This document shows positions 27,247 through 48,236 of a DNA stretch of 64,000 bases, in pieces; within the stretch, counting starts at the first letter, position 1, and every line of letters begins with the position of its first letter. The stretch comes from Bacteroidia bacterium. Lineage in GTDB: Bacteria > Bacteroidota > Bacteroidia > B-17B0 > Aurantibacillaceae. The position numbers were made by a program, and so were the translations under genes. The stretch lies in contig JALHRL010000022.1 of NCBI GenBank assembly GCA_022841465.1, forward strand, positions 1-64,000. Reading direction: 5' to 3'. Below the pieces are notes generated by a model. The model had not been told where the DNA came from, searched no databases, and saw nothing but the letters and a program-made list of their open reading frames with translations.

Positions 27247-27603
27247 TTAAGAACTTATCGATTTTAAAAACTCAACAGTCTCTGTATACCCCCTATATTC
27301 TGCATATCGAATAGCCTAATTATCCAAAGCTCTAACACCAGCACCAAGTTGCGCTAGCAACTTGACCATCTCTATATGCCCACGATAAGCTGCATATCGA
27401 ATAGCTTCATCATTTTCAGCTCTAACATCAGCCCCAAGCTCTGTTAGAGCCTTGACCGTCTCTGTATGCCCATAATAAGCAGCCATTCGAATAGCACAAT
27501 CATTCTCAGCTCTAACATCAGCACCATCAGCTATAATCTGTTGAATAGCTTCTACAGGCAGACCTAGTTCAATTGCTTTATACAGTTCTTCTTGAATGTT
27601 CAT
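27247..27603 (-). pseudogene. Ankyrin-repeat gene 1 with in-frame amber codon
   Basis: It opens with MNIQEELYKAIELGLPVEAIQ, as in two sister genes. Ankyrin repeats of about 33 residues follow (ADVRAENDCAIRMAAYYGHTETVKAL). A TAG at 27316-27318 ends the frame after 95 residues, but the repeat continues in frame (AIRYAEYRGYTETVEFLKSISS) to TAA at 27247-27249. In the sisters this site is Trp or another sense codon, so TAG is a point nonsense mutation or a suppressed stop. The coding part is 27316-27603. Confidence 0.7.
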
Positions 27604-28281: not shown

Positions 28282-28313
28282 AATTAATCTCTTTTCTGAA
28301 TGCATTTAGTCAA
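28282..28313 (-). repeat. 32-bp junction element copy 2
   Basis: Variant form TTGACTAAA, 17 bases, TTAATT on the minus strand. It joins the end of ankyrin gene 2 (GARLD, stop) to the subtilase start and shares TGCATTCAGAAAAGAGA with copy 4. Confidence 0.75.
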
Positions 28314-28581
28314 GTCTAGCACCAAGACTCTTGAGCAACTCAACAGTCTCTGTATGCCCACGATAAGCTGCCCATCGAATAGGCCAATCATTACCAGCTC
28401 TAACATCAGCTCCAAGCTCTGCTAGAGCCTTGACAGTTTCTGTACGTCCATTTCTAGCTGCCCATCGAATAGACCAATCATTCTTAGCTCTAAAATCAGC
28501 ACCATCAGCTATAATCTGTTGAATAGATTCTACAGGTAGTCCTAGTTCGATTGCTTTATACAGTTCTTGTTGAATGTTCAT
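28306..28581 (-). CDS. Ankyrin-repeat protein 2
   Basis: 91 residues. N terminus MNIQQELYKAIELGLPVESIQQ, then about two ankyrin repeats (IRWAARNGRTETVKALAELGADVRAG, IRWAAYRGHTETVELLKSLGARLD). It is nearly identical at both ends to ankyrin gene 3 but has fewer repeats, which points to duplication with loss or gain of repeat units. Ankyrin proteins bind other proteins; no effector domain is attached. Confidence 0.85.
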   Translation of the reverse strand: MNIQQELYKAIELGLPVESIQQIIADGADFRAKNDWSIRWAARNGRTETVKALAELGADVRAGNDWPIRWAAYRGHTETVELLKSLGARLD

Positions 28582-29294: not shown

Positions 29295-29459
29295 TTAGAT
29301 ACAGGATACAGTTTTTTCAAGCTGCTTGCTATCAGTGTTTTGAAATTTTTCAAAATCTGAGGCGCTATCAAAAGTCATTGTGCAAACCGTGTCGTTAATC
29401 TGAACGCGCGCAACGACCTCTTGTTCTTGAGTAACAGTGACTGTCAAAATATTAAACAT
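29295..29459 (-). CDS. Small beta-rich hypothetical protein
   Basis: 54 residues from ATG 29459 (MFNILTVTV), with AGGAG 7 bases upstream; the frame is open further upstream but that would overlap the previous gene deeply. It starts with alternating hydrophobic strands and has two Cys residues. Overlaps 29452-29712 by 8 bases. Confidence 0.55.
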   Translation of the reverse strand: MFNILTVTVTQEQEVVARVQINDTVCTMTFDSASDFEKFQNTDSKQLEKTVSCI

Positions 29460-29712
29460 AATAGTCTCCTGCTGAAAAATTGACTTGCAACATGTCGTCG
29501 TGTGGCGTGACTTTATACCTTTGATCCTCAAGTTGTTTAATAACAGCCAAAATAGTCTTTATTGACGCACCTCGGGTGCTGACGTTAACGGTTTCTTTTC
29601 CCTCATACGCGGCAGAAACTACAGCGTGTAAAACTTTGCTTTTAAGTTGAAACCTATTCAGTTTGCCGGTCTTGCTTTGTACTACGATCTTTTGTGCTTT
29701 TTGTGCGTTCAT
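29452..29712 (-). CDS. Hypothetical protein
   Basis: 86 residues with mixed alpha/beta character (KIVVQSKTGKLNRFQLK..., VNVSTRGASIKTILAVIKQLED). No family recognised. Its end carries the AGGAG used by the next gene. Confidence 0.55.
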   Translation of the reverse strand: MNAQKAQKIVVQSKTGKLNRFQLKSKVLHAVVSAAYEGKETVNVSTRGASIKTILAVIKQLEDQRYKVTPHDDMLQVNFSAGDYYV

Positions 29713-29864: not shown

Positions 29865-29896
29865 GATTAATCTCTTTTCTAAATGCAATTAGTCAA
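29865..29896 (-). repeat. 32-bp junction element copy 4
   Basis: TTGACTAAT, 17 bases, TTAATC on the minus strand. It links the end of ankyrin gene 3 (GARLD, stop) to the small gene 29716-29862. Closest to copy 2. Confidence 0.75.
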
Positions 29897-30524
29897 GTCT
29901 AGCACCAAGACTATTGAGCAACTCAACAGTCTCTGTATGTCCATTAGCTGATGCCAATCGAATAGCCAAATTATTATTAGCTCTAACATTAGCTCCAAGT
30001 TGCGCTAGCAACTTAACTGTATCTGTATATCCATTTGCAGCTGCAGATCGAATAGGTTTATCATTAGCAGCTCTAACATCAGCTCCAAGTTGCGCTAGAA
30101 CCCTTACGATATCTGTACGTCCATTTTGTGCCGCCCATTGAATAGCTTCATCGTTAGCAGCTCTAACATCAGCTCCAAGTTGCGCTAGAGCATTAACAGT
30201 ATCTATATTTTCATTTTCTACTGCATGTCGAATAGCATAGTCATCGCCAGCTCTAACATCAGCTCCAAGTTGCACTAGCAACTTAACTATTTCTGTATGT
30301 CCATTCTCAGCTGCCAATCTAATAGCCAAATCATTTTCAGCTGTAACATCAGCCCCAAGTTGCGCTAACAACTCAACTATTTTTATATGCCCACATCTAG
30401 CTGCCTGTTGAATAGCTTTGTCATATTCAGCTCTAACATCAGCGCCATCAGCTATAATCTGTTGAATAGCTTCTACAGGTAGTCCTAGTTTGATTGCTTT
30501 ATACAGTTCTTTTTGAATATTCAT
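29889..30524 (-). CDS. Ankyrin-repeat protein 3
   Basis: 211 residues with about six ankyrin repeats of 33 residues, each close to A-I-R-x-A-A-x-N-G-H-T-x-x-V-x-L-L-A-Q-L-G-A-D-V-R-A. N terminus MNIQKELYKAIKLGLPVEAIQQ and end NSLGARLD match genes 1 and 2. DNA repeats between units are strong, so repeat number can change by recombination. A protein-binding role is expected; the partner is unknown. Confidence 0.9.
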   Translation of the reverse strand: MNIQKELYKAIKLGLPVEAIQQIIADGADVRAEYDKAIQQAARCGHIKIVELLAQLGADVTAENDLAIRLAAENGHTEIVKLLVQLGADVRAGDDYAIRHAVENENIDTVNALAQLGADVRAANDEAIQWAAQNGRTDIVRVLAQLGADVRAANDKPIRSAAANGYTDTVKLLAQLGANVRANNNLAIRLASANGHTETVELLNSLGARLD

Positions 30525-32560: not shown

Positions 32561-32785
32561 TCACTGACTCCAACTAATTAGCATTTCATCTGATCCAACG
32601 CCACTAACCTGATAACCCAAACTGGTCAAATATCTATACAAGGCGGTATATTCACAGTCTTTAACATTAGGGACTATAACTGATGTGTTTCCTACTTCAT
32701 GTGCATTGTTTATAGCAACACTTGCATTTATATATGCTTGGCTTTTAAAGAGCTTTTCTAGTCTGAGTTCTAGTGCTGGTTTCAT
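32561..32785 (-). CDS. Small hypothetical protein
   Basis: 74 residues, alpha/beta (ALELRLEKLFKSQAYINASVA..., YRYLTSLGYQVSG). First gene of a four-gene unit closed by the terminator at 31774-31808. It resembles in layout 47973-48236 (a helical start, a short strand end with SW), but the similarity is weak. Confidence 0.55.
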   Translation of the reverse strand: MKPALELRLEKLFKSQAYINASVAINNAHEVGNTSVIVPNVKDCEYTALYRYLTSLGYQVSGVGSDEMLISWSQ

Positions 32786-35832: not shown

Positions 35833-36030
35833 CTAATTCTTTTCAACCCAGTACTTAAAATAATTAGTTTGCAACTCACTTTTTCTAATAAGCGCAATTA
35901 AATATCCATTAAGATCTAAACTCATAGAAAACGTCTTGCCATTAACATAAGCAACATCAATTCTCATATATTTCCAGAAAATGTTAAGATATATTATAGG
36001 TTTTGCCAGTTCAAACTGTATAAATTTCAT
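35833..36030 (-). CDS. Micro-gene of the M-x-F-I array (member 1)
   Basis: 65 residues, MKFIQFELAKPIIYLNIFW..., strand-rich and aromatic. It overlaps the next member (ATGA). Last in a head-to-tail series of nine tiny genes, most of which start M-x-F-I-x-L/F/V. No family recognised. Confidence 0.65.
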   Translation of the reverse strand: MKFIQFELAKPIIYLNIFWKYMRIDVAYVNGKTFSMSLDLNGYLIALIRKSELQTNYFKYWVEKN

Positions 36031-36215
36031 TGTTTATAAACCATTCCTAAACCTTTTTTCAGAAACATTTGTTTTCTAAATGTATCAAAAAAGAAATAAA
36101 GATACCAATTTTTAGGAAAAATAACAACAAAGTGATGACTTAAAACTCCATGGCCCTCTGGAAAATAATCGAATACAATATTGGGATAACATGAAGTAAG
36201 TTTTATAAATATCAC
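36027..36215 (-). CDS. Micro-gene of the M-x-F-I array (member 2)
   Basis: 62 residues, MIFIKLTSCYPNIVFDYFPE..., very rich in Phe and Tyr. It overlaps both neighbours by 4 bases. The motif at the start is shared with other members; the rest has diverged. Confidence 0.65.
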   Translation of the reverse strand: MIFIKLTSCYPNIVFDYFPEGHGVLSHHFVVIFPKNWYLYFFFDTFRKQMFLKKGLGMVYKQ

Positions 36216-36394
36216 TGCACCCTCCTTATCAAGTCTATAAACTGTTCCTGGCTTTCCATAACATTCATCAGCCGACCAAAATTGTCATAAATGGAATACA
36301 GTGTACCTTTTGTGTACATAAGAAGCATCCTACCAGTCAAGTAAAATGGATTAGCCGTTGTATTAGGCATGCATTTTAATTCTATAAATTCCAT
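36212..36394 (-). CDS. Micro-gene of the M-x-F-I array (member 3)
   Basis: 60 residues, MEFIELKCMPNTTANPFYLTG..., ending in a helix (QEQFIDLIRRVQ). The upstream gene overlaps its start by 13 bases. Confidence 0.65.
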   Translation of the reverse strand: MEFIELKCMPNTTANPFYLTGRMLLMYTKGTLYSIYDNFGRLMNVMESQEQFIDLIRRVQ

Positions 36395-36543
36395 AAAAAG
36401 AACTCGTAATCATCTCGTTGTAAAGTAATTGCAATGTGTAGATCATTATTTTGTATAAAATCTAAAGACAAACAAGAGTCACATAGGCAGTCGATCGTAC
36501 AGAATTTAACGAATGGATGGTAGGGTAGTGTTATAAACCTCAT
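36382..36543 (-). CDS. Micro-gene of the M-x-F-I array (member 4)
   Basis: 53 residues, MRFITLPYHPFVKFCTIDC..., with three Cys residues. A TGTGAGCG element lies just before the ATG. Too short for the usual length cut-offs but packed like its neighbours. Confidence 0.6.
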   Translation of the reverse strand: MRFITLPYHPFVKFCTIDCLCDSCLSLDFIQNNDLHIAITLQRDDYEFFLWNL

Positions 36544-36575
36544 TAGACGCTCACATTTGCCCTATAAGCGACGAT

Positions 36576-36767
36576 TTAAGTATGGGTGCTACCATTGCCC
36601 TCAGAAATAGAAAACGACTGTACAAAGGTATTCTGGACTTTTCTTAGGTATTCCACATGACGGTATATCCTATCGTTGGCATACATCCAATACAGCACCC
36701 CTGATCTAGAAAGAGGCCTGGACTCATTCTCTAGTTCTTTTTCAAAGTATACACTTATGAATTTTAT
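36576..36767 (-). CDS. Micro-gene of the M-x-F-I array (member 5, ATA start)
   Basis: 63 codons. The frame opens at ATA (IKFISVYFEKELENES...), exactly where a start would give M-K-F-I, with GGAGG 4 bases upstream. ATG to ATA is one change. Either ATA is used as a rare start or the gene is silenced. No other ATG near the start is in frame; an internal Met appears later. The frame is otherwise intact. Confidence 0.5.
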   Translation of the reverse strand: MKFISVYFEKELENESRPLSRSGVLYWMYANDRIYRHVEYLRKVQNTFVQSFSISEGNGSTHT

Positions 36768-36918
36768 AGAACCTCCGTATCTTGTCTTGTAGCTTAATGG
36801 CTTTTCCGAACTGTTCGTAGAATGTTACAGGTATGTCTCCGTACCATTGGAACACATCATTAAGCTCACTGACAATCAGAATATTGTCTAGATCGTCAAA
36901 ATAGTCTTGATTGAGCAT
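36742..36918 (-). CDS. Micro-gene in the array (member 6)
   Basis: 58 residues, MLNQDYFDDLDNILIVSEL..., without the M-x-F-I start. Its ATG overlaps the stop of member 7 (TAATG), and its end overlaps the start of member 5. Packing suggests coupled translation. Confidence 0.55.
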   Translation of the reverse strand: MLNQDYFDDLDNILIVSELNDVFQWYGDIPVTFYEQFGKAIKLQDKIRRFYKIHKCIL

Positions 36919-37091
36919 TATCCTATCGGATAGGTGTAAAATAGTCGCTTTAGATACTGTAACATTTTGTATTCAGAATTGTAAGGACCTTGTGATGGTA
37001 GCTGCCAGCAAAAGTAGTAATATCTAAAGATTGAAGATATGTCGTCGCTATTAAAATGATCTACAGGTCGTTGTAGGCGTATAAGCTTCAT
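36918..37091 (-). CDS. Micro-gene of the M-x-F-I array (member 7)
   Basis: 57 residues, MKLIRLQRPVDHFNSDDIS..., with M-K-L-I in place of M-x-F-I. Aromatic middle (FRYYYFCWQ). Its start shares a base with the stop of member 8. Confidence 0.6.
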   Translation of the reverse strand: MKLIRLQRPVDHFNSDDISSIFRYYYFCWQLPSQGPYNSEYKMLQYLKRLFYTYPIG

Positions 37092-37270
37092 TACCTGAGA
37101 CCTTTAGAGAATAGCCGAGATAAAATTACCTTATTACCGTCGTCACTAAAGAAAGATAGGAACGGAGTCATAAGACCTGAATGACTCTTTACATCAGAAT
37201 AAGAAGCGACATAGCGCTGGGTCATTCTTGCTTCTTGGTCTATTTCTAGAAATATGTGTATGAAATTCAT
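37091..37270 (-). CDS. Micro-gene of the M-x-F-I array (member 8)
   Basis: 59 residues, MNFIHIFLEIDQEARMTQR..., no clear ribosome-binding site in front. It follows a 144-base gap holding two hairpins. Confidence 0.55.
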   Translation of the reverse strand: MNFIHIFLEIDQEARMTQRYVASYSDVKSHSGLMTPFLSFFSDDGNKVILSRLFSKGLR

Positions 37271-37414
37271 ATAGTTTTGGAGGGGGTCCGTGGGCTAAAA
37301 CGACACCACAGACCCTCCCCATCCTTATCTGCTTATGCCTGGAATAAGCAGCATGGTCCTACAATCCTCGGGTTGTGCGCGCTATGCCCGTGTGCTCTTA
37401 GACCTAAAAACAGC
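37271..37414. other. Hairpin-bearing gap inside the micro-gene array
   Basis: Two inverted repeats: GGGTC-C-GTGG with CCAC-A-GACCC (about 37284-37315), extended by GGAGG/CCTCC, and TGCTTAT/ATAAGCA (about 37330-37350). No T tract follows on either strand, so a processing site, attenuator or leader structure is more likely than a terminator. The gap is G/C-rich for this genome. Confidence 0.45.
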
Positions 37415-37618
37415 TTACCCGCGTCCGCCATAAGTTGCAACAAAATATTTTCTAAGCATTGTCGCTTTTAGGTTTATGCGCCCAATTTCTTTGTTTTCAA
37501 TCTTAGAGTGTACCTCTGAGGTAGAAAAGGAAGAAGAAATGAATAGATAATTATGGTATCCATCGTAATAAAAACTATAACTTACCGGTTTATTTGACGA
37601 AAGTTTTATGAAGCGCAT
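37415..37618 (-). CDS. Micro-gene of the M-x-F-I array (member 9)
   Basis: 67 residues, MRFIKLSSNKPVSYSFYYD..., strand-rich with a basic C-terminal half. First gene of the array, 3 bases after the DNA ligase stop, so the array probably shares the ligase transcript. Confidence 0.65.
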   Translation of the reverse strand: MRFIKLSSNKPVSYSFYYDGYHNYLFISSSFSTSEVHSKIENKEIGRINLKATMLRKYFVATYGGRG

Positions 37619-37621
37619 AAC

Positions 37622-38572
37622 TTATAATTTTTTTCTATCTATCCGCACATAGTCAGAAAACATTTTTTCGGAAGTACAGTCTTCGGGCTTAACGTCGTCT
37701 CTAAATCTGTGAAACGTCGGGTGTCGAAGTCGGCCCGCTAAATTTTTATCACTAACTTTTTGAATTTCTTGAGCAAACACATCAATAACCTTACCTTTAT
37801 AGGCGTCAAAATCCCTAGACATAAGAAGCCTTGTTTGGTCATTAAAACCACTTACATAGCCAATCTCAACTAGATTACCCTCGTGGTATACACTAACGGC
37901 GATAGAACCCAGTTGGTTAGCATATTTACCTTTGCCGGGCTTGTATCCTGTAATTATAGCTGATATGTCATAGGATTTCTTAAGCTTTGACCAGCCTTCA
38001 CCATATGGCTTACTTGTGTCTTTGATTATGAGACCTTCACCACCTTGGGCTATCATCTGTTTAAAATATTCGAGTTTGTCGTCGGTTATGACTTTAATGG
38101 CTTTGATATACGGACTATTAGCTTGCGACACAACTGTTTCTAGAATGGCTCGTCGCTCGACCCAAGGCAGTGCGCGCACATCCAGCCCACTATAGAACAT
38201 AACATCAAAAGCGTTATAGACGACTTTACCGGTTTTTTGCTTTTGAACAGCCTCCTCCGGCAAAGAATTCATTATAGCGTTTGTTTCAAGAAAGCTTGAA
38301 TAAAATACTTCTCCATCTAATACTGTACCATTTAAATCTTTATAATCTACATCTGTTATATGTGGGACATTATCAGTCTTATCTGATAGAAAACCGTCTG
38401 AGACAGATTCTCGTCTAGAAAGAAGTGTATTACCGGTTCTCCTTCCGTAAGGACAACCTCCTATGTATAGGACAAATCTAGAACCGTCCAACTTTTCTTC
38501 TGCTATATATTGTTTATCTTCAATGTTTTCAGGTAGTTTAGCTTTACAGCGACTAGGAATACATAGTTTCAT
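37622..38572 (-). CDS. lig: ATP-dependent DNA ligase
   Basis: 316 residues. The nucleotidyltransferase motif I is EEKLDGSRF, with the lysine that takes AMP at Lys27. Further: a motif III-like stretch (FDVMFYSGLD), motif IV GEGLIIKD, motif V WSKLKKS, then an OB-fold part (DISAIITGYKPGKGKYANQLG). No N-terminal DNA-binding domain, as in small phage ligases. It seals nicks in replication and repair. Confidence 0.9.
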   Translation of the reverse strand: MKLCIPSRCKAKLPENIEDKQYIAEEKLDGSRFVLYIGGCPYGRRTGNTLLSRRESVSDGFLSDKTDNVPHITDVDYKDLNGTVLDGEVFYSSFLETNAIMNSLPEEAVQKQKTGKVVYNAFDVMFYSGLDVRALPWVERRAILETVVSQANSPYIKAIKVITDDKLEYFKQMIAQGGEGLIIKDTSKPYGEGWSKLKKSYDISAIITGYKPGKGKYANQLGSIAVSVYHEGNLVEIGYVSGFNDQTRLLMSRDFDAYKGKVIDVFAQEIQKVSDKNLAGRLRHPTFHRFRDDVKPEDCTSEKMFSDYVRIDRKKL

Positions 38573-38722
38573 AGCGTTTCTCTTAAAAAGTTCATTAACT
38601 TAACTTGTATATCTACCGTTTTTGTTATTGTTCTTTTTGCATTTGTAAATAAATATGAAAGCATTCTACCCTTAGAATATTTATCGAATTTTATGACAAT
38701 AAAATGCATTTTGTACCTTATT

Positions 38723-39875: not shown

Positions 39876-40612
39876 ATTAATTCTCTCTTATATTGAAAAG
39901 CTTCAGATGTAAGCTTGTGGATTGGGTGGTTTGGATTTTGATAATATATAGCATAGACATCCTTCATACCACGTTTATAGCCAATCTTTAAAAAGGCTAC
40001 CCAAACTTTATAGAGGGCTCGCCAAAGTGTACCTTTTCGTACCAGCAAAAACCAGGCAGTATAGGGTAGCTTCCAACTATCCGTACTTTTGTAACTTATT
40101 ACCCCCATAACAAATTGCATAATAATGATACACAAAATGTCCCAAAGAGAAGGAGTCTTTCCTGCGCAAAGTTTTAGAAAAGAAATAAAGCCCGGAGACC
40201 TATGATACCAAGAATGGAAACAGAACTGTCCTGGATTTTGATTGTTCCAAAAATACTTAGGCTGACCACCAAAATAAAACTTCATGTAACTAGTGTTCTC
40301 GCCGTGCTCCAGCATTTGCCGCGCAAACTTACCGTTATCGAATAATGCCGAGAACGCGAGGACTGGGGTCAGGTTATCCATGCTGTCATATTCGTTAGAA
40401 ACTGGGGTACGTTGAAGTAAGCCGGGCTGCCGCACACACATGGCAAAATTCTCCTTTACGCGCTCGATTTGTTGTAATTTTTGGATTCGCGTAAAAGAGG
40501 GATTGGACAAGTATGCAATAAGCATTTCAAAAGTGAACAGTGTCCCATTCTGAGTAACTTGACCAGGCTCAAGAGTTGTCAATCCAAATCGGTCTTCAAA
40601 TTGTTCGTTCAT
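39872..40612 (-). CDS. Hypothetical protein
   Basis: 246 residues. The N-terminal 90 residues are helical; a middle part is rich in Trp/Tyr/Phe and His (FWNNQNPGQFCFHSWYHRSPG); then a hydrophobic stretch (WDILCIIIMQFVMGVI) that may be a membrane segment, and a basic C terminus. No recognised family. It overlaps both neighbours. Confidence 0.6.
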   Translation of the reverse strand: MNEQFEDRFGLTTLEPGQVTQNGTLFTFEMLIAYLSNPSFTRIQKLQQIERVKENFAMCVRQPGLLQRTPVSNEYDSMDNLTPVLAFSALFDNGKFARQMLEHGENTSYMKFYFGGQPKYFWNNQNPGQFCFHSWYHRSPGFISFLKLCAGKTPSLWDILCIIIMQFVMGVISYKSTDSWKLPYTAWFLLVRKGTLWRALYKVWVAFLKIGYKRGMKDVYAIYYQNPNHPIHKLTSEAFQYKRELI

Positions 40613-40869
40613 TAGAAATACCTCAAATCAATAGGATTAGATCTTTTTGAATTAATATTATATTGTTGACGAGTAACAGTTCTGAATGTTTGTACAATTT
40701 TTAAAGGAATAGGAAGCTTTACTATCTGAGTTCCGTCAAAAAAATTTTGGGGGTTCCTAACGGTTTCCCAAAAAACACGAAGACTATAAGTAGATTTGTC
40801 GTTCTCTAGGGAAATATCGTGCCACATTCTAATGACTCTACTAGCGTGTGGAAATTTTACTAATTTCAA
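40612..40869 (-). CDS. Small hypothetical protein
   Basis: 85 residues, MKLVKFPHASRVIRMWHDI..., basic and strand-rich. The start M-K-L-V-K-F is like the micro-gene array at 35.8-37.6 kb, so it may be an outlying member. Shares one base with the next gene. Confidence 0.6.
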   Translation of the reverse strand: MKLVKFPHASRVIRMWHDISLENDKSTYSLRVFWETVRNPQNFFDGTQIVKLPIPLKIVQTFRTVTRQQYNINSKRSNPIDLRYF

Positions 40870-47728: not shown

Positions 47729-47973
47729 TTTTGTTGCCTTGAAAGACGAGCCATCATACGTCGAGTATGACGATTCATGGGATTAACCATGTGATCGCCG
47801 TCTTTATTCAAAAGCTTTTCATTTTCTTTATATGACTTAACAGTTTTATCTTCACCGGTAGTCTCATCTTTAATAGTTTCAGTAACCAAAGATACCGATT
47901 CTAAAGTTCGCTCGCCTTTAGAATTAATATAAACTGGTAAAGTAATAAAATCAGATTTTCTATATGATGGCAT
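47725..47973 (-). CDS. Small basic hypothetical protein
   Basis: 82 residues ending in a basic helix (NRHTRRMMARLSRQQK). No family recognised. Shares a base with the upstream gene. Confidence 0.55.
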   Translation of the reverse strand: MPSYRKSDFITLPVYINSKGERTLESVSLVTETIKDETTGEDKTVKSYKENEKLLNKDGDHMVNPMNRHTRRMMARLSRQQK

Positions 47974-48236
47974 TAGGAACTCCAGGAAACGTTCAACATT
48001 GAACCATTAAGATTTACTTTTAGACCATGAAAACGAAGAAAGTCTAAAACACTTTCTCTTACTTTATCTTCAAATTGATAGTCGAATTCTACATCAGTAG
48101 AATACATACCTTGTTTAGCAGCTTCGTTGATGGTATAGCTAATATCGTTAATAGCACTTTCAACTTCTTTTTTTGAGTTTTTGAAGTTTGCGTTTCTAGT
48201 AATTAGTTTAAGTTCTTGAGCAAAAATAGCTTTCAT
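47973..48236 (-). CDS. Small hypothetical protein
   Basis: 87 residues, helical with a strand end (LKVNLNGSMLNVSWSS). Overlaps 48233-48514. No family recognised. Confidence 0.55.
   Translation of the reverse strand: MKAIFAQELKLITRNANFKNSKKEVESAINDISYTINEAAKQGMYSTDVEFDYQFEDKVRESVLDFLRFHGLKVNLNGSMLNVSWSS

Follow-up and report, generated by a model that had tools for sequence, protein, structure and literature searches.

A tandem array of overlapping, tagged micro-genes in a tailed-phage contig, and similarly built arrays in its portal relatives

What might be encoded by a run of very short, overlapping genes that begin alike and otherwise differ? The question was raised by the window, the 64,000-base stretch of DNA analysed here (bases 1-64000 of the 73,012-base contig C22, part of a 3.77-Mb bacterial assembly). 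Genes for a large terminase, a portal and a major head protein show that the contig belongs to a tailed phage. Nine open reading frames of 53-67 codons follow one another head to tail on the minus strand at 35833-37618, directly after a ligase gene, and most of them open with a short tag, M-x-F-I or a variant of it. Our tentative answer, which we favour while holding it somewhat less than probable, is that such arrays may be sets of small, host-directed binding proteins, each carrying a short constant end and a surface that varies, diversified in each phage lineage. The frames of the window array were as follows:

35833..36030, minus strand: u1, open reading frame of 65 amino acids, MKFIQF..., the last gene of the array
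36027..36215, minus strand: u2, 62 amino acids, GTG start, MIFIKL..., shares 4 nucleotides with u3 and 4 with u1, GGAGG upstream
36212..36394, minus strand: u3, 60 amino acids, MEFIEL..., shares 13 nucleotides with u4
36382..36543, minus strand: u4, open reading frame of 53 amino acids, MRFITL...
36576..36767, minus strand: u5, 63 codons, IKFISV..., tag without a standard start, 26-nucleotide overlap with u6
36742..36918, minus strand: u6, 58 amino acids, MLNQDY..., the only frame that lacks the N-terminal tag, ends ATA CTT TGA
36918..37091, minus strand: u7, 57 amino acids, MKLIRL..., 1-nucleotide overlap on each side
37091..37270, minus strand: u8, open reading frame of 59 amino acids, MNFIHI...
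37415..37618, minus strand: u9, open reading frame of 67 amino acids, MRFIKL..., the first gene after the ligase

All nine frames described in an earlier note on this DNA were found, on one strand and with the lengths given there, and several of them were near or below common annotation limits, as it had said. Its statement that they mostly overlap by 1-26 bases held for six of the eight junctions (1, 1, 26, 13, 4, and 4 nucleotides), the remaining two being gaps of 144 nucleotides between u9 and u8 and 32 nucleotides between u5 and u4. The tags were also as described, with MKLI in u7, except that M/I-x-F-I opened seven frames (u1, u2, u3, u4, u5, u8, and u9) and not six. Eight ATG or GTG frames of 50-70 amino acids lay on the array strand and covered 81% of the 1786 bases, and none lay on the opposite strand. 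In 2000 dinucleotide shuffles, the mean number of such frames was 0.71 and the maximum was 6, so that none had 8, and none equalled the array in coverage. The start M.[FL]I was found in 7 of the 8 standard-start array frames versus 4 of the 232 frames of 40-95 amino acids elsewhere in the contig (Fisher test, 3e-10), and in 134 of 7134 short frames (1.9%) of 31 related contigs. All eight tagged frames among the nine have a hydrophobic residue at position 6, written with varied codons, and this pattern points to conservation of the tag at the protein level as a putative first strand.

Beyond the first residues, the proteins were unlike each other, which agreed with the earlier description. When the nine proteins and the product of a frame at 40612 were compared after residue 6 (45 pairs), the mean z was 0.14, hardly above chance. 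Only u2/u3 (p 0.007) and u3/u6 (p 0.010) were outlying, where 0.45 pairs were expected, and u3 was 30% identical to u2 and 25% identical to u1 in the alignment. No pair within this set of ten whole sequences was detected by BLAST at E 0.01; the same set, from which a further tagged frame, u11, was excluded, served for the analyses of composition and packing. Of the description as fast-diverging tandem paralogs, the tandem array was supported; paralogy was not established by bodies so near to chance. The residues W, Y, and F made up 100 of the 569 residues in the bodies of the set (p 0.0035 versus base composition).

Arrays of the same build were present in several related phages, where comparison of gene number showed tagged sets of 5 to about 50 micro-genes. 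These relatives were found with terminase and portal alignments. The portal alignment gave 267 IMG/VR relatives, of which 80 were kept, and two more scans, started from the G399 and L131 portals, yielded 74 and 70 loci, some of them shared. A pattern-free rule, in which the last ten and first seven residues were compared with shuffles, flagged 5 of 32 long contigs (G399, G402, G415, G423, and G430), 3 of 112 family loci of at least 8 kilobases (L131, L290, and L291; there is overlap between loci, and some phages occur more than once). It flagged none of a further 26 contigs of at least 8 kilobases, which were shorter than the long contigs. The window itself was not flagged, its tag being too short for the rule, which therefore undercounts.

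The set of G399 (IMGVR_UViG_3300046373_000092) consisted of 51 frames of 28-110 amino acids, 50 of them on one strand, with a C-terminal motif like S-x-I/L-h-x-E-L-F/L/Y. In G415, whose portal is 69% identical to that of G399, 12 of 12 frames were on one strand, with S/T-K-L-I-x-A-L-F-K or similar. G430 had 36 tagged frames with I-L-E-Y-E/K or similar (32 on one strand), L131 had 15 with L-Q-R-W-x-L-P or similar (all on one strand), and G423 had 5. L290 and L291 had 7 and 8 tagged frames, respectively, with I/V-L-E-Y, and by eye their ends were conserved on both termini. The patterns were derived from the same contigs in which they were counted, and the counts keep some rows that look spurious, at least two in G430 and one in G399; in each of seven control contigs, the same patterns were found in 0-6 frames. 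Neighbours no more than 60 nucleotides apart overlapped in 57 of 59 cases in six of the relatives' sets (21/23 in G399, 4/4 in G415, 13/13 in G430, 12/12 in L131, 3/3 in L290, and 4/4 in L291) and in 6 of 7 cases in the window set. In the 48 tags of G399 counted, Ser was encoded by six codons, Glu by GAA 20 times and by GAG 19 times, and Leu by five codons. Because many synonymous codons were used, the G399 tag is under selection at the protein level.

Whole-sequence BLAST at E 0.01 detected 24 pairs among 50 G399 proteins, 5 among 32 G430 proteins, and 2 between G399 and G415. The fraction of W+Y+F in the bodies was 0.142-0.218 in seven arrays including that of the window (L290 and L291 are not independent, and G423 was omitted), above the base-composition expectation of 0.109-0.163 in each case. 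It was 0.079-0.097 in large proteins, about half as much, and 0.087-0.122 in small frames from seven relatives in which no array was flagged. The relatives' arrays are like that of the window in size, packing, one-strand runs, aromatic-rich bodies (G423 aside), and the possession of one short conserved end per phage. The window set is likewise a short overlapping run on one strand with one conserved end, little other shared sequence, and bodies rich in aromatic residues.

These features suggest how a set of binding proteins might be built. In the tagged products, a first strand that is short and hydrophobic (M-x-F/L-I-x-hydrophobic) would be kept as a shared structural or docking element, the conserved end in G399, as read from its sequence, would be a strand plus the end of a helix, and the aromatic-rich body would serve as a freely varying contact surface. 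The window array sits in a leftward gene block with replication genes; this block is probably early, and from such a location the products would be made early in infection and could act on varied host or defence proteins. That the frames are translated and expressed early, that the products bind targets in the host, that they are rapidly renewed, and that the array shares its origin with those of the relatives is inferred, and the products may have a role in host takeover or anti-defence, as the earlier note had proposed. A bolder version is improbable: by analogy with antibody libraries, a family of tailed phages, perhaps of Bacteroidota, would carry libraries of up to about 50 hypervariable, aromatic-rich mini-binders, in which the constant end docks every member to one partner or forms a constant strand of a shared mini-scaffold and the body varies with the host target.

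The conserved ends could instead be a by-product of translation: in such packed operons the last codons of a gene would contain the ribosome-binding site and start of the gene behind it and would be fixed for that reason, without any functional tag. Part of a C-terminal tag can double as the start region of the next gene, most clearly in L131, where the R-W-x-L-P-stop end contained GGA in 13 of 15 cases, where 12 of the 15 ends had an ATGA stop/start, and where 10 of the 12 close neighbours overlapped by exactly 16 nucleotides. The L-E-Y-K/E tag of G430, L290, and L291 often stood before 4-nucleotide overlaps, for which its codons would supply GGAG, and the Q and E codons of the G399 tag were biased to CAG and GAG. 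In the window, Ile-4 was encoded by ATA in all eight tagged frames versus 25% of the Ile codons in the other frames of the contig (u11 has ATT). However, S and I/L of the G399 tag lie ahead of any such site and are retained with the codon variety already described, and L131 mostly keeps C-x-F/I-x-x-L further upstream. The window tag, moreover, comes after the start codon, and with the pattern used a Shine-Dalgarno-like match was absent at 7 of the 11 starts (those of the nine genes in the array, of u11, and of the 40612 frame). On balance a pure by-product of translation is unlikely, though it deserves more weight than the alternatives that follow.

More unlikely is a view of the nine as unrelated small genes, alike through a hydrophobic first strand of a sort common in small proteins, with the relatives' arrays as separate phenomena. 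It gains from bodies that are at chance apart from two of the 45 pairs and from the missing link to the relatives' tags, but the tag stands on 7 of 8 standard-start frames versus 1.7-1.9% of other short frames. It is quite improbable that the conserved end is a short homology for exchange on a platform that collects unrelated small genes without a common function. One L291 micro-gene has no L290 counterpart and the bodies are mostly dissimilar within sets, as gene cassettes might be; against this, the tag DNA of G399 is too little conserved for repeats, the window shows only short two-copy matches, the bodies share their aromatic enrichment, and the order of most paired L290/L291 micro-genes is kept. 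An array of decaying or non-functional filler, its frames open by chance, would account for a weak codon signal and for a tag without a standard start in u5, but is very improbable given that the frame count was reached in no shuffle, that starts and stops overlap, that the tag is shared, and that a relative keeps about 50 such genes.

Several results weigh against the reading of the arrays as host-directed binding proteins. The tag is N-terminal in the window and mostly C-terminal in the relatives, whose conserved ends are, as far as tested, unrelated to it in sequence. A profile of the G399 tag found G415 frames best and no window-array frame, and hhalign versus a mixed alignment of the relatives gave nothing; the G399 tag alone was used as a profile of its own. 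In addition, no such array was present in G395 or G398, whose portals (59-60%) make them the closest of the long relatives. Since no sequence link between the tags was found and these two phages lack arrays, the window array is placed with those of the relatives by build and not by proven descent. A triple M-x-F-I pattern had 19 matches in IMG/VR, all spurious on inspection. The bodies in L131 were not all dissimilar, with 22 BLAST pairs among its 15 proteins, tags included. Structure prediction, which the earlier note had proposed as a check, gave weak models: the AlphaFold2 model of u1 had four strands and a C-terminal helix (predicted local distance difference test score, pLDDT, 73), and that of u3 had a hairpin and a helix at low confidence (pLDDT 51), and the two rest on overlapping alignments, so they are not independent. 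In codon score, u3-u8 ranked below all the test segments taken from leftward genes of the same phage, and in each of the four phages examined the codon usage of micro-genes was intermediate between that of coding and that of non-coding sequence. Such intermediate scores fit young or unusual genes together with a composition bias, and they are also evidence against ordinary, long-kept genes.

The fast divergence suggested in the earlier note is plausible but weakly supported by L290 and L291, the one nearly identical pair among the relatives with arrays. Identical proteins were encoded by 16 of the 25 compared genes, including terminase and portal. The micro-genes formed seven pairs, three of them identical, and one extra micro-gene was present in L291 only. 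In the four differing pairs, 22/30, 30/34, 27/32, and 20/40 residues were identical (50-88%), and the ratios of nonsynonymous to synonymous substitution rates (dN/dS) were 0.25, 0.16, 0.10, and 0.63. With ratios of 0.10-0.63, there was no positive selection on these micro-genes, which also counts against rapidly diversified binders. An ordinary 113-residue gene in the same block was identical at 95 of 113 positions; because ordinary genes had changed too and dN/dS was low, the block has diverged as a whole under purifying selection. The gain or loss of one gene and one strongly changed gene were the sole signs of fast renewal, a further point on the negative side, and rapid renewal of the micro-genes is accordingly weakly supported. 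The two contigs differ mainly in a block that holds part of the micro-gene array, and different larger inserts lie nearby, which makes them a natural pair in which to follow changes of an array.

Searches of libraries assigned no family to the array. The scans of Pfam, PHROGs, PADLOC, and NCBIfam covered eight array frames (all but u5), and u5 was scanned only inside a nine-row profile against PDB sequences. In Pfam and PHROGs, searched up to E 10 with these eight frames and those at 40612 and 41233, no array frame had a match better than E 0.07, and the best match overall was that of the 41233 frame (E 0.0039, below the cut-off of the family). PADLOC, whose models describe defence and not anti-defence, gave none at E 1 for the eight frames, u11, and the ligase, and NCBIfam gave none for the eight frames and u11. 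The profile search seeded with all nine frames, also put forward in the earlier note, was run and matched no PDB sequence, and Foldseek found nothing at E 0.001 in PDB or BFVD for the u1 model. The window array profile had two weak partial matches (E 0.003) in 20 further records. For 53 hand-picked micro-proteins of the relatives, no match was found in PHROGs and Pfam at E 0.01. Searches of an open-licence literature collection gave no paper in which the title or the beginning of the abstract describes such arrays; subscription papers and outside preprints were beyond their scope.

The array DNA and its surroundings had no match among 50,697 phage records, in which the ligase and the primase-helicase had only distant matches. 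Viral-contig scans with the ligase, the primase-helicase, and the capsid protein gave no relatives, and a search for the ligase in 19 portal relatives, many of them fragments, was negative but had no positive control. No close relative of the window phage was found. A 16S gene in the assembly was judged to be from Bacteroidota, and the sole portal relative in named bacterial genomes was in a Flavobacteriaceae metagenome bin; the host of the phage is uncertain because binning can be wrong. An origin of the array DNA from a host was rejected after a scan of 100 genomes, in which the array matched, apart from its own sequence, only two stretches, 25 and 32 bases long. The Rfam scan of the window gave only three tRNAs at gathering scores, and scans for promoters and terminators near the array showed no excess. 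The idea of a nucleotide element was also dropped: RTGNNNTTYATH occurred 18 times in the window versus 11.9 expected, and 6 of 100 shuffles reached 18. Since nine of the 18 occurrences were in or beside the array, there was no excess elsewhere in the window.

The neighbouring features were as follows:

37271..37414, minus strand: 144-nucleotide gap separating u9 from u8, containing a GC-rich hairpin, no Rfam match
37622..38572, minus strand: ATP-dependent DNA ligase, 316 amino acids, between u11 and u9; best NCBIfam match TIGR02779 (E 1.9e-31, below its cut-off)
38569..38709, minus strand: u11, 46 amino acids, MHFIVIKF..., a further tagged frame before the ligase, 4-nucleotide overlap with the ligase start
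40612..40869, minus strand: weak candidate, 85 amino acids, TTG start, MKLVKF..., residue 4 is V and not I

The folding of the gap between u9 and u8 was ordinary compared with shuffles (z -1.57; 10 of 200 shuffles folded at least as well). The frame at 40612-40869, suggested earlier as a further member of the array, is only a weak candidate, with a TTG start and V at residue 4. Ahead of u5, CGGAGG is followed 4 nucleotides later by the ATA codon of its tag. A +1 shift at the end of u6 (CTT TGA) would run on in the frame of u5, whose tag lacks a standard start; we take CTT TGA to be the frameshift site of release factor 2 (RF2; prfB).

Other repeated gene sets were noticed. On the minus strand of the window, three genes that look ankyrin-like by eye (27316-27603, 28306-28581, and 29889-30524) start like MNIQ-E/Q/K-ELYKAI-x-LGLPVE and form a local paralog set with a constant N-terminus. 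Three small genes on the same strand (29452-29712, 32561-32785, and 47973-48236) have a similar C-terminal pattern by eye and may be paralogs. In the flagged contig G402 (L176-L180), about twenty dispersed paralogs of 86-130 amino acids lie at about 15-82 kilobases, with WYLNG..HRVDGPA-like repeats that look MORN-like and constant ends like MKVFKGW and KLIFNEHFKLEE. Because this family has conserved bodies, G402 is not an array of the kind described here.

Among known systems, the closest in function for comparison is the host takeover module of the Bacillus phage SPO1, which is reported to include 26 genes whose products are potentially cytotoxic and shut down host processes; eight of these products attenuated growth, and Gp53 is an adaptor-like modulator of ClpCP (PMC6873191). 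Like the module, the window array is a phage gene cluster with many small members, and a functional likeness is plausible, although the array is not a member of this class. No shared terminal tag was found in the first 40 kilobases of SPO1, which hold the module, when the same test was applied, and no tag excess was found in a stretch of Vibrio phage PG07. Of 17 translated module genes, 12 encode more than 67 amino acids, and their W+Y+F fraction was 0.108, with no aromatic enrichment. FlbD proteins (PF06289) are small, near 60 amino acids, and start MIKLTRL with a hydrophobic first strand. This identity was rejected for the array: in the genome of the window no array frame matched, and one weak match (E 0.03) was on another contig. 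The multigene families of African swine fever virus and families of poxviruses are tandemly expanded host-interaction genes with conserved domains, whereas only about 4-12 residues are conserved here.

Phage early regions rank among the main sources of inhibitors that act on bacterial enzymes and defences, and the smallest genes are often skipped by annotation. A shared terminal tag together with overlapping short frames would provide a sequence rule for unannotated proteins with screenable targets. Should the tag prove to be a shared docking end, a single partner would account for a whole array; if it is only a translation junction, the arrays would be a clear case of operon packing that shapes protein sequence.

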